Positions 10,619-35,646 of a stretch of 41,314 nt of DNA are shown here, piece after piece. This DNA is from Minisyncoccota bacterium (GTDB lineage Bacteria > Patescibacteriota > Minisyncoccia > Moranbacterales > UBA2206): contig JARLIA010000003.1 in the NCBI GenBank assembly GCA_031291955.1, forward strand, positions 1 to 41,314, written 5' to 3'. A program made the position numbers and the translations under genes. A model generated the notes under the pieces. The model made no database searches. It was not told the DNA's origin and saw only the letters and a list, made by a program, of their open reading frames with translations. The first letter of the stretch is position 1, and every line of letters starts with the position of its first letter.

Positions 10619-12622
10619 ATGAAAGCTAAAAATAACAAATTTATTATTGACATTGTGCCGTTGACCCGAATTTCACTGACGCACAATCAGTCTTTTTCCT
10701 ATTTGTCCGATACGTCATTATCGGCCGGCACTTTGATAACTATCCCCTTCTCCGGACGAAAAATCGAGGGAATCGTACTCGGCGCGAAAAAAGATTTCCC
10801 AAGAATTGGAAACATTGAACTGAAGAAAATTGAGAAAGTCTTTGAAGAAAATTTTCTCACCGCAAAGCAGTTGGAACTGGCTGAGTTTATTTCGGACTAT
10901 TACCTCTCTCCGCTCGGGATCGTTCTCAAAAATTTCGTGCCGGCGCGGACGAAGGCGCGAAACGCGAAACGCGAAACGCGAAACGTAAATACGAAAAAAA
11001 TAATTTTAACAAAACACCAGAAAATAGCGGCTAAGAAAATAACAAGCGCTCCACGCTCCACGCTCCACGCTCCACGATTTCTCCTCTTTGGTCCGTCCGG
11101 CTCGGGGAAAACGGAAGTCTACATTCATTCCATTTTGAAATTAAGAGAAAAAGATCCTGATTTTCAATTCTTAATCTTGCTGCCTGAGAAAACACTCACC
11201 CCGCAAGCCGTCGAACGCTACGGAAATTATTTTAAAACGGAAGAAATCGCGGTCCTCTCCAGTAATATATCTAGAGGACGCTTCTATTCCGATTGGAAGA
11301 GAGTCCAATCAGGCGAAGTAAAGCTCGTGATAGCCACTCGCAAAGGGGTTTTTGCCCCTTACAAAAAATTGGGACTGATTGTGATTGATGAAGAGCAGGA
11401 TATATCGTACAAGAATTGGGATATGAATCCGCGCTATGACGCCCGGACAGCGGCCGAGAAATTGGCGGGGTTGCATAGTTGTCCGATTGTGCGAGGAACA
11501 GCCACGCCGTCGATCGAAAGTTTTTATCGCGCAAAAAATAAAGAGTTTGAATTACTGGAATTACCTCCGCTTCCTTCTCCCCAATCCTCTCCCGAGTACA
11601 AGAGAGGGAGTAGCGTTGAAGTGGTGGACATGAAAAAGGAAAGATGGGAGAAGAATTATTCCTGCGTCAGCAAAAAACTCAAATCAGAAATCGCCTACGC
11701 TTTGAAATATCAACAACAAACGATCCTATTCATAAATCGCCAAGGCATGAGCAGTTTTTCGGTTTGTGAGAATTGTAAGACTGTTTTGAAGTGTCCTCGA
11801 TGCGATCGGGCTTTGGTTTATGACGCGTCTGGAAACTATCGCTGCACTCATTGCACCTACAAGACCTCCATTACGCCACAGTGCCCGAAATGCCACGGCC
11901 TGGTTTTTAAAAACGTGGGATTGGGCACGCAAAAAGTGGAAAAGGAAGTTCAAAATCTTTTTCCCGGCGCGCGCTTGGCGCGTCTCGACAGCCAGGCCAT
12001 CAAAAAGTCCGGCACACAGGAAAAAATTTACAAAGATTTTTCCGCCGGCCTAATTGACATTCTGATCGGCACGCAAATGATCACCAAGGGTTGGGATTTG
12101 CCGAATGTGGCTCTGGTTGGTATAATAGACACGGATAATATACTAACGCAACCTGATTTTACGGCGGCTGAAAAATTCTACCAAAACATCGTCCAGATCG
12201 CCGGCCGTGCCGGACGACCGGGGGCTAAATTTCCCGGAACGGTCATCATTCAAACCTTTCAGCCGGAAAACAAATTGGTAAGAATGGCGGCTGAAAAAGA
12301 CTTTGAGTCGTTTTTTTCCCGCGAAGCCGAAGAGAGAAAAACGCTCGCCTACCCTCCGTTCGGAAGAATCGTAAAATTGGTTTTCCAGGACTACAGCCCC
12401 AAAAAAACGGAAAGCGAAACGAAACGCGCTTATGAAATCCTGAAAAATATCCCGGATATCTCCGTCACCGAACCGGAAAACGCTTTTGTTCCAAAAATTC
12501 GCGGCCGCGATCGAAAACAGCTGGTTGTGAAATTCAAAGATAAAATGCCCGCGGAACTGAAGAAGGAATTAAGAAAACTGGGACCAGGCTGGATTATTGA
12601 CGTGGATCCGGTGTCATTTTAA
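10619..12622 (+). CDS. priA: Primosomal protein N' (PriA helicase)
   Basis: PriA reloads the replisome at stalled forks. The 667-residue protein has the N-terminal DNA-binding region, Walker A GPSGSGKTEVY and a DEEQD box (E. coli has DEEHD). The zinc-binding cysteines lie in CENCKTVLKCPRCD, CTHC and CPKC, followed by helicase motifs such as IGTQMITKGWDLPNV and QIAGRAGRPG. Start ATG 10619 is chosen because ATG 10610 lies in the -10. Two four-copy heptamer arrays are translated in frame just before Walker A, giving basic low-complexity stretches (KARNAKRETRN and SAPRSTLHAPR). A Pro/Ser-rich stretch (LPSPQSSPEYKRGSS) is a third insert-like segment. First gene of an apparent priA-def-fmt-rhodanese run. 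Confidence 0.95.
   Translation: MKAKNNKFIIDIVPLTRISLTHNQSFSYLSDTSLSAGTLITIPFSGRKIEGIVLGAKKDFPRIGNIELKKIEKVFEENFLTAKQLELAEFISDYYLSPLGIVLKNFVPARTKARNAKRETRNVNTKKIILTKHQKIAAKKITSAPRSTLHAPRFLLFGPSGSGKTEVYIHSILKLREKDPDFQFLILLPEKTLTPQAVERYGNYFKTEEIAVLSSNISRGRFYSDWKRVQSGEVKLVIATRKGVFAPYKKLGLIVIDEEQDISYKNWDMNPRYDARTAAEKLAGLHSCPIVRGTATPSIESFYRAKNKEFELLELPPLPSPQSSPEYKRGSSVEVVDMKKERWEKNYSCVSKKLKSEIAYALKYQQQTILFINRQGMSSFSVCENCKTVLKCPRCDRALVYDASGNYRCTHCTYKTSITPQCPKCHGLVFKNVGLGTQKVEKEVQNLFPGARLARLDSQAIKKSGTQEKIYKDFSAGLIDILIGTQMITKGWDLPNVALVGIIDTDNILTQPDFTAAEKFYQNIVQIAGRAGRPGAKFPGTVIIQTFQPENKLVRMAAEKDFESFFSREAEERKTLAYPPFGRIVKLVFQDYSPKKTESETKRAYEILKNIPDISVTEPENAFVPKIRGRDRKQLVVKFKDKMPAELKKELRKLGPGWIIDVDPVSF
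10957..10984. repeat. Tandem heptamer GCGAAAC, 4 perfect copies, in priA
   Basis: 28 nt, perfectly repeated, inside the priA coding region between the DNA-binding and helicase parts. Confidence 0.9.
11047..11074. repeat. Tandem heptamer CGCTCCA, 4 perfect copies, in priA
   Basis: 28 nt, perfectly repeated, 62 nt downstream of the first priA array and about 25 nt before the Walker A codons. Confidence 0.9.
11586..11607. repeat. Short inverted repeat in priA
   Basis: CCTCTC (11586-11591) pairs with GAGAGG (11602-11607). It lies within a Pro/Ser-rich stretch between the helicase DEEQD region and the zinc-binding region, where a linker insertion would be tolerated. Confidence 0.4.
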
Positions 12623-12666
12623 CATTTTAGCAATGTGTTAAAATGTTAATATGCTAACATGCTAAC
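12617..12666. repeat. Octamer array and hairpin abutting the def start
   Basis: CATTTTAACA (12616-12625) is the exact complement of TGTTAAAATG (12636-12645). From 12635 on, four 8-nt units follow: GTGTTAAA, ATGTTAAT, ATGCTAAC, ATGCTAAC. The next unit supplies the def ATG at 12667. An extended -10 (TGCTAACAT, 12652-12660) within the array ends 7 nt before that ATG. Confidence 0.7.
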
Positions 12667-20525: not shown

Positions 20526-20620
20526 TTTCAATTCACAATTTTCAATTTTTAAACAATCCACAATGATTCAATTTTACAATTTATTCATTGAAAAATTGGA
20601 AATTGTTTAAAAATTAGAAA
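20526..20620. repeat. AT-rich inverted repeat between cysS operon and dus
   Basis: A perfect 14-bp inverted repeat (20544-20557 with 20602-20615) flanks an inner CAATGA/TCATTG pair. The whole stretch is made of variants of CAATTTT and ACAATTT. It is not GC-rich enough for a standard terminator. Confidence 0.7.
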
Positions 20621-20657
20621 TTTCAAATCTCTGTAAAGGGGAATTTTTTTATTTTAT

Positions 20658-21725
20658 ATGAGCAACTTCTGGTTCAAACTAAATAAACCCATTTTGGCAT
20701 TAGCGCCCATGGCCGGCATAACCGACAGTGCTTTTCGCGAGATCTGCCGGCGGTACGGCGCGGACATAACAATCTCCGAAATGGCCAGTGTCTCGGCGCT
20801 GTTTTTCAAACCCCAAAAAACTTTGGAACTGGTGAAATTTAACAAAAATGAACGACCATATGTCGTCCAATTGTTCGGCAAACATCCGGAACATTTTTCC
20901 GCATCCGCGCGAATCATTACAGAAAAAATCAAGCCTGATGGCATCGACATCAATTTCGGCTGTCCGGCCAAGAAAGTTTTCGGCCACGGGAGCGGCTGCG
21001 CGCTCATGCCACAGAAAGAACTAGCCCGAGAAATCATTTCCGCCGTCTGCGATAACACCGACTTACCAGTCTCGATCAAAATTCGCGCGGGCATTGAAAA
21101 AGGTGGGTATTTAGATACCCACCCAAATACCCACCCGAAAAAAAACTCTTCGGTAAATGCTTTGGAATTCATTGAAAGCACCAAAGATCTCCCCTATTCG
21201 ACCGTCATGGTCCACGGCCGGACCTACGAAGGCGGTTTTTCCGGCGCAGTCGATTTTGAAATCGTTTCCGAAATCAAGAAAATAATTCCCGAGAAAATCG
21301 TCCTGGGAAACGGTGGAATCATGACACCTGAAGACGCCGTGAATATTTTGGAAAAATATCCCGATCTCGACGGACTCGGCATCGCCCGCGGCGCTTGGGG
21401 TCGACCGTTCATATTCGATGAAATAAAGAATTTTATATCTTATTTCGCCGATGGAGACAGTAGGGTCAGGTCGCGACCTGTCCCTACTGTCCAGGCAATG
21501 AAATACGATTTCGCCGCCATCAAAAAAATCATACTCGAACACGCCGAACTGATTTACAAAGACAAAGGCGGAGCCGGCAAATTCGAAATGCGAAAACATT
21601 TAGCTTGGTACGTCAAAGGATGGCCCGGCGCCCAGGAACTGCGCCGAAAATTAGTTACAGCCGAAAATCTTTCAGAAATAAAAAACGTCCTTGATAATTT
21701 TACTGTCCTATCTGAAATCCACTAA
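20658..21725 (+). CDS. dus: tRNA-dihydrouridine synthase with two repeat-encoded inserts
   Basis: This FMN enzyme reduces uridines in the tRNA D-loop. The 355-residue protein has ALAPMAGITDSAFREICR, DINFGCPAKKVFGHGSG (catalytic Cys region), VSIKIRAGIE, VMVHGRTYEGGFSG, LGNGGIMTPEDAV and GLGIARGAWGRPFIF. Two stretches look added. GGYLDTHPNTHPKKNSS follows KIRAGIEK and is encoded by an inverted plus direct repeat (21102-21136). DSRVRSRPVPTV is encoded by a 36-bp palindrome (21456-21491) after the FMN phosphate-binding region. Both lie between structural elements and leave the motifs intact. It begins about 130 nt after the preceding ORF, across an AT-rich repeat. Confidence 0.93.
   Translation: MSNFWFKLNKPILALAPMAGITDSAFREICRRYGADITISEMASVSALFFKPQKTLELVKFNKNERPYVVQLFGKHPEHFSASARIITEKIKPDGIDINFGCPAKKVFGHGSGCALMPQKELAREIISAVCDNTDLPVSIKIRAGIEKGGYLDTHPNTHPKKNSSVNALEFIESTKDLPYSTVMVHGRTYEGGFSGAVDFEIVSEIKKIIPEKIVLGNGGIMTPEDAVNILEKYPDLDGLGIARGAWGRPFIFDEIKNFISYFADGDSRVRSRPVPTVQAMKYDFAAIKKIILEHAELIYKDKGGAGKFEMRKHLAWYVKGWPGAQELRRKLVTAENLSEIKNVLDNFTVLSEIH
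21102..21136. repeat. Inverted and direct repeat in dus
   Basis: GGTGGGTAT (21102-21110) pairs perfectly with ATACCCACC (21115-21123), and ATACCCACC recurs at 21127-21135, 12 nt further on. Confidence 0.8.
21456..21491. repeat. 36-bp near-perfect palindrome in dus
   Basis: Two 18-nt arms meet without a loop and match at 17 of 18 positions; the left arm begins GACAGTAGGG. The element starts on a codon boundary and adds exactly 12 codons. Confidence 0.92.
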
Positions 21726-35581: not shown

Positions 35582-35646
35582 AACATTTTAACATATTAGC
35601 ATTTTAATCCCCAGCATTTGCTAACATGTTAATATGCTAAAATGTT
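35582..35646. repeat. Inverted octamer array upstream of mreC
   Basis: Two 27-nt arms (35582-35608 and 35620-35646) are complementary at about 23 positions around an 11-nt loop. Each arm is a run of 8-nt units such as AACATTTT, AACATATT, AGCATTTT. On the minus strand TGTTAAAAT (35593 to 35585) ends 7 nt before the mreC ATG. Confidence 0.85.

Follow-up and report, generated by a model that had tools for sequence, protein, structure and literature searches.

The closest described systems are the double-foot REPs of subclass 2.4 (RAYT group 4), in which GT[AG]G at the 5′ end and C[TC]AC at the 3′ end sit on a long palindromic stem, the accompanying TnpA_REP (RAYT) carries the motifs NH[IFV]H, WQ and YIxNNP, and REPs also lie in frame within the RAYT gene itself, between the HUH and Y motifs (Quentin et al., 2018; PMC6006769). 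GTAG REPs within genes, including genes for DNA repair and RNA modification and sometimes with two inserts in one gene, were reported by Di Nocera et al. (2013; PMC3733652), who found most REPs to be intergenic and those of related genes to lie mostly at differing sites, except in recB of two Xanthomonas species. The REP/BIME and REPIN elements of E. coli and Pseudomonas are also GTAG-footed hairpins paired with a RAYT; they are extragenic, of high copy number and have a single GTAG foot, with a bulged stem in E. coli (see PMC8266576). Rickettsia palindromic elements (RPEs) are short coding palindromes found in frame in the conserved enzymes of small genomes. Intragenic GTAG REPs and REPs inside subclass 2.4 RAYTs are already published; what is new here is that the same loops have been colonised repeatedly and that copies have complementary flanks specific to each of them.

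A 36-bp palindrome in the dus linker

The window, by which we mean the whole stretch of 41,314 nucleotides that was analysed, contains a complete dus gene on the forward strand (20658..21725, with ATG at 20658 and the stop codon ending at 21725) that encodes a tRNA-dihydrouridine synthase (DusB/NifR3-like) of 355 aa. The product scored 203 bits against Pfam PF01207 (Dus) and 245 bits against TIGR00737, which is under the equivalog cut-off of 293, and it matched the Thermotoga Dus structure (PDB 1vhn) with an E value of 1.5e-43. At 21456..21491 the gene carries a 36-bp palindrome made of two 18-nt arms (GACAGTAGGGTCAGGTCG and CGACCTGTCCCTACTGTC) that pair at 17 of 18 positions with no loop. The palindrome opens on a codon boundary at 21456 and is translated in frame as DSRVRSRPVPTV, corresponding to Dus residues 267–278; the palindrome, its pairing and its phase had been claimed in a first-pass annotation of the sequence and were confirmed. 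The annotation was also right that such a palindrome is unlikely to arise by chance, as the expectation in random sequence of the same composition was ∼4e-5 for the window and 9e-4 for the genome, and first-order Markov versions of the window, and likewise of a 200-kb part of contig C1, yielded no palindrome of equal strength. By the census criteria used it was the only palindrome of such strength in the window, and single-strand folding gave z = −4.9 relative to shuffled sequences.

Comparison with other copies (see below) divided the palindrome into a 28-nt core, GTAGGGTCAGGTCGCGACCTGTCCCTAC (GTAG…CTAC; 21460..21487), which is one base off the family A consensus GTAGGGACAGGTCGCGACCTGTCCCTAC and has both feet of a double-foot REP on a long palindromic stem, and two private arms that pair with each other outside the shared core, GACA on the left (21456..21459) and TGTC on the right (21488..21491). 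Beyond the TGTC flank the pairing goes on imperfectly (TGTCCAGGC against GCCgaTGGagACA).

The palindrome lies in a linker, referred to here as S3 (21432..21521, forward strand), which joins the catalytic barrel to the helical C-terminal part, as judged by family comparison and by alignment with 1VHN. The linker has 30 codons in the window gene; among 30 Dus proteins of the family, its length after DEIKN was 15 residues in eight insert-free genomes (for example LISKGKYSEYDFKKI), 9–10 in three and 20–46 where inserts were present. The Thermotoga enzyme has a short linker at this position (SGKYSEPS), from which the palindrome-encoded residues are absent. As the linker has 30 residues here and 15 in the eight relatives, the 12 palindrome-encoded residues are not ancestral, and the net growth was about 15 codons rather than exactly 12 as originally proposed. 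The residues next to the palindrome in S3 may be leftovers of other inserts. The residues were absent from relatives, including the more distant ones with a 15-residue linker, as the first-pass annotation anticipated. However, the clean 12-residue gap that it also expected was missing from the nearest genomes (G033 and G032) because these carry other palindromes at this position. At S3 of the nearest relatives we found, in L128, a dimer-like GTAG…CTAC palindrome (VGAVPANTADRHEPPLQ) and, in L132, a decayed palindrome encoding RDALQCVST. Among the genomes compared, all of which are assemblies of uncertain quality, we found no close relative whose dus site was empty and whose flanking DNA matched, so that the insertion was not observed directly.

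Family A copies and their cognate RAYT

The exact family A consensus core (GTAGGGACAGG..., one base different from the dus copy) was present at two further sites in the 1.01-Mb genome, in ychF (TIGR00092, 402 bits) and in a RAYT gene immediately downstream of the HUH motif, in frame in both cases. The genome thus has three copies, in Dus, YchF and RAYT, every one of them intragenic. These copies, together with cores in more than 100 contigs of many phyla, bear out the suggestion that the palindrome is an in-frame repeat of mobile type; it is not unique in its genome, although three copies are not the 'many' that had been predicted. With copies elsewhere, and with the encoded residues absent from both relatives and 1VHN, the palindrome is neither unique nor ancestral to Dus. 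In public DNA, taking one genome per species, the exact core was found in at least 119 stretches on more than 100 contigs, and the matches listed came from Nitrospinota, Bacteroidota, Patescibacteria, Spirochaetia, Omnitrophota, Methylococcales and others. We found no mention of the core sequence in the openly licensed literature.

The RAYT gene that carries the core (L168; C9:60321-60848) encodes the motifs NHVH, WQ and YIFNNP expected of subclass 2.4, and its palindrome lies between HUH and Y, as described for that subclass. Its best family was NCBIfam NF047646 (67.7 bits, below the equivalog cut-off of 80). The genome search gave no second near-exact core close to C9:60594. Across the order, the exact core occurred in only 2 of 131 genomes, our own and G016, and the RAYT of G016 (L335) was the top match to our RAYT at 67% identity, with all other full-length matches in 34 genomes of the family at 52% or less; in L335, too, an in-frame core directly follows the HUH motif. 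The core and the closest RAYT therefore occur together. In nearly all RAYTs of the family the loop after HUH contains an intact or decayed GTAG palindrome, the type of which tracks the RAYT subtype. Tandem in-frame half-units of family A (VGTGRDAAS or VGTGRDD repeats) were also noted in L027, L099, L070 and L121; those of L027 and L099 are inside RAYT genes. In these arrays a half hairpin recurs head to tail and is followed by a full one.

A second RAYT in the same genome (L163; C6:27116-27631), with motifs NHIH, WQ and YIRNNP that again agree with subclass 2.4, has its own palindrome, GTAGGGGGCAATAATTATTGCCCCCTAC, at the same post-HUH position; the protein scored 50.1 bits against the NCBIfam equivalog cut-off of 80. 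Within the order GTAGGGGGCAATAATTATTGCCCCCTAC was confined to this genome, where it occurs in the RAYT gene and in miaA. One variant lies in a gene for a methylpurine-DNA glycosylase, and a 419-aa gene has another, of GTGG type. This second pairing of a RAYT with a palindrome (RAYT, miaA and the glycosylase variant; family B) repeats the pattern of family A. Each palindrome family is tied to a particular transposase, and the pairing is open to a test-tube assay. A third gene, resembling a Y1 transposase (L302; C7:10870-11094, in a frame of 278 aa), scored above the Pfam cut-off, and a PNHxH-type HUH motif was looked for in it and was absent.

These results make it very likely that the 36-bp palindrome is an intragenic double-foot GTAG REP mobilised by the cognate subclass 2.4-type TnpA_REP/RAYT encoded at C9:60321-60848. 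A REP would be a non-autonomous hairpin element handled as single-stranded DNA by an HUH-tyrosine transposase, and we infer that the element is mobile, the RAYT having acted on single-stranded DNA to cut the hairpin and join it into the dus linker. The insert would then have survived because translation used a stop-free frame, of which the palindrome has two, and because the linker that connects barrel and helical domain tolerates added residues. To our knowledge, REP transposition by a RAYT in cells has not been demonstrated for any member of subclass 2.4. Compared with the double-foot REPs of that subclass, this genome has few copies (three), and all those found lie within protein genes, not in the spacers that separate them. 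In the strict sense of a repetitive extragenic palindrome, which is extragenic and of high copy number, an element with three copies in 1.01 Mb, all intragenic, falls outside the definition.

The first-pass annotation had compared the palindrome with RPEs, and the comparison holds for behaviour: in both cases a short palindrome is read in frame in conserved enzymes (here Dus, YchF, MiaA and others) of a small genome. This raised the alternative that the dus element is of RPE type, a coding palindrome that spread by some route other than its own transposase with the reading frame kept, and Di Nocera et al. (2013; PMC3733652) do tie intragenic RPE-4 and RPE-6 to REPs. However, the same authors class the intragenic elements of R. 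conorii as CGTC and as not associated with transposase genes, whereas the window element is GTAG-tagged and a RAYT carries the same core, and so we consider this alternative very unlikely. The element behaves like an RPE yet, by the tag and the transposase association as these are classed in PMC3733652, is not one; its identity is that of a GTAG double-foot REP with a cognate RAYT carrying the same palindrome.

Loops occupied by different palindromes

The linker S3 is not the only part of dus to hold such inserts. A second palindrome, GGTGGGTATTTAGATACCCACC (21102-21123), which with an extra half (ATACCCACC) extends over 21102..21135 and encodes GGYLDTHPNTHP, lies in the loop after KIRAG (site S2; 21093..21158, forward strand) and is unrelated to the 36-bp one. 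The S2 loop has 22 codons in the window gene and 5 in 19 of the 30 family genes. A kin insert was present in the sister genus L128 (RDGYLNTHPDT), whereas L132 and a further 18 relatives, in which the loop has 5 codons, lack the insert. No further copy was found in its own genome, so that the two RAYTs described above do not account for all palindromes here. Across the 30 family dus genes all strong palindromes (score ≥13) were confined to a few loops, in which many in-frame palindromes unrelated to one another are found: S3 is occupied by many different inserts, and three other loops show the same pattern of insertion. A longer palindromic insert (HPVKYFSITKNNF...NLLNRV) was seen in dus of L138, L154 and L155, in L155 in two different loops of the gene.

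The same pattern was evident in other genes. Both UvrB (L174, L189 and L211) and UvrC (L194, L205 and L220) have in-frame palindromes, mostly differing in sequence, at one position in three genomes each, and MiaA has another frequently occupied loop. ComEC (L207, L218 and L226) likewise has in-frame palindromes, mostly differing in sequence, at one position in different genomes. With uvrB and uvrC, repair genes are again targets, as in Di Nocera et al. Sixty of 78 distinct GTAG palindromes sampled from our own and related genomes were in frame within ORFs of at least 150 aa, in a sample that was gathered partly through Dus searches and lies partly in RAYT genes; the share without these, by our count, was roughly 70%. 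For strong palindromes of any kind, 7 of 12 were inside genes in a 241-kb sample of the genome (200 kb of C1 plus the window). In contrast to the mainly intergenic REPs described by Di Nocera et al., with their mostly differing sites in related genes, most sampled copies here are intragenic, and different palindromes recur in the same loops of dus, miaA, uvrB and uvrC.

The occupancy of S3 also bears on whether the insert has been co-opted, that is, whether the 12 residues, or an mRNA hairpin that they impose, tune the activity or expression of Dus. The strong folding of the strand (z = −4.9) and the intact reading frame would fit such a role. However, relatives have unrelated peptides of differing length at S3, or none, so that no sequence is conserved there, and the same element is found in unrelated enzymes. 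We therefore regard co-option as very improbable. The description of the element as 'domesticated' is similarly unsupported, as nothing suggests that the inserted residues have a function; the peptide is probably without function, and the dus linker would be better seen as a refuge for selfish DNA. As a record of how selfish DNA enters core enzymes, dus offers one gene family with four loops and many independent inserts in 30 genomes. It lets one ask how mobile palindromes choose their sites and keep the frame, and what share of the loop variation of streamlined bacteria is due to mobile elements as against ordinary insertions.

Private flanks and insertion size

Copy-specific complementary flanks outside the core were found for all three family A copies (4 bp in dus, 4 bp in ychF and 9 bp in the RAYT gene) and for family B (4 bp in miaA, 3 bp in the second RAYT and 2 bp in the glycosylase gene), with a joint chance for the two families in our own genome of about 6e-11. 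When gapped pairing was allowed, 4 of 7 own copies ranked within the top 1% of random sites. Among public family A copies, 17 of 125 had flanks of at least 4 bp, against 1.4 expected, the longest being 22 bp. Such flanks are not a general trait of REPs, as 0 of 66 copies of the GTAGAGACG type had 4 bp or more. We found no earlier description of private complementary flanks in the openly licensed papers searched.

Each copy has outer arms of its own, and published work (e.g. PMC7202029, PMC8604942) describes template switching as perfecting inverted repeats. Both points would suit a local origin in which template switching during replication perfected a quasi-palindrome inside dus with no mobile element involved. 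However, the 28-nt core is shared near-exactly with ychF, with the RAYT gene and, in other phyla, with more than 100 contigs. Such sharing is beyond the reach of local events, which refutes this origin for the core and leaves it able to explain the private arms only; as an account of the element it is extremely improbable. If the palindrome is a REP moved by its RAYT, the flanks could mean either that hairpin loops are favoured targets or that one flank is copied through hairpin-primed synthesis. In our reading of the sequences, the downstream flanks of the ychF and dus copies look like those of relatives and the upstream flanks look copied; both flanks of the miaA copy look old. The right flank of the window dus insert (CAGGCA...TACGATTTCGC) does match the older insert of L128; a nested insertion on the left side was considered and rejected, since the left flank of the dus insert matched the older one no better than shuffled sequences did.

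A fixed insertion size or a clean target duplication was likewise rejected, as net changes varied by locus (about +7, +8 and +15 codons, and 0 in miaA); because they differ between loci, what remains today is not a simple insertion of constant size. More tentatively, it is possible, though we would not call it probable, that subclass 2.4 RAYTs in general favour local hairpin loops, or copy a flank by hairpin priming, with private complementary flanks as the outcome, that their REPs in streamlined genomes are mainly intragenic and revisit the same protein loops, and that the loop diversity of core enzymes in these bacteria consists largely of selfish palindromes.

Other inverted repeats were noted in the window. 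An imperfect AT-rich inverted repeat with 36-nt arms (81%) lies immediately 5′ of dus at 20537-20622, and two similar AT-rich inverted repeats at 12615-12653 and 35582-35646 (CATTTTAACAT...) perhaps represent a separate repeat family.
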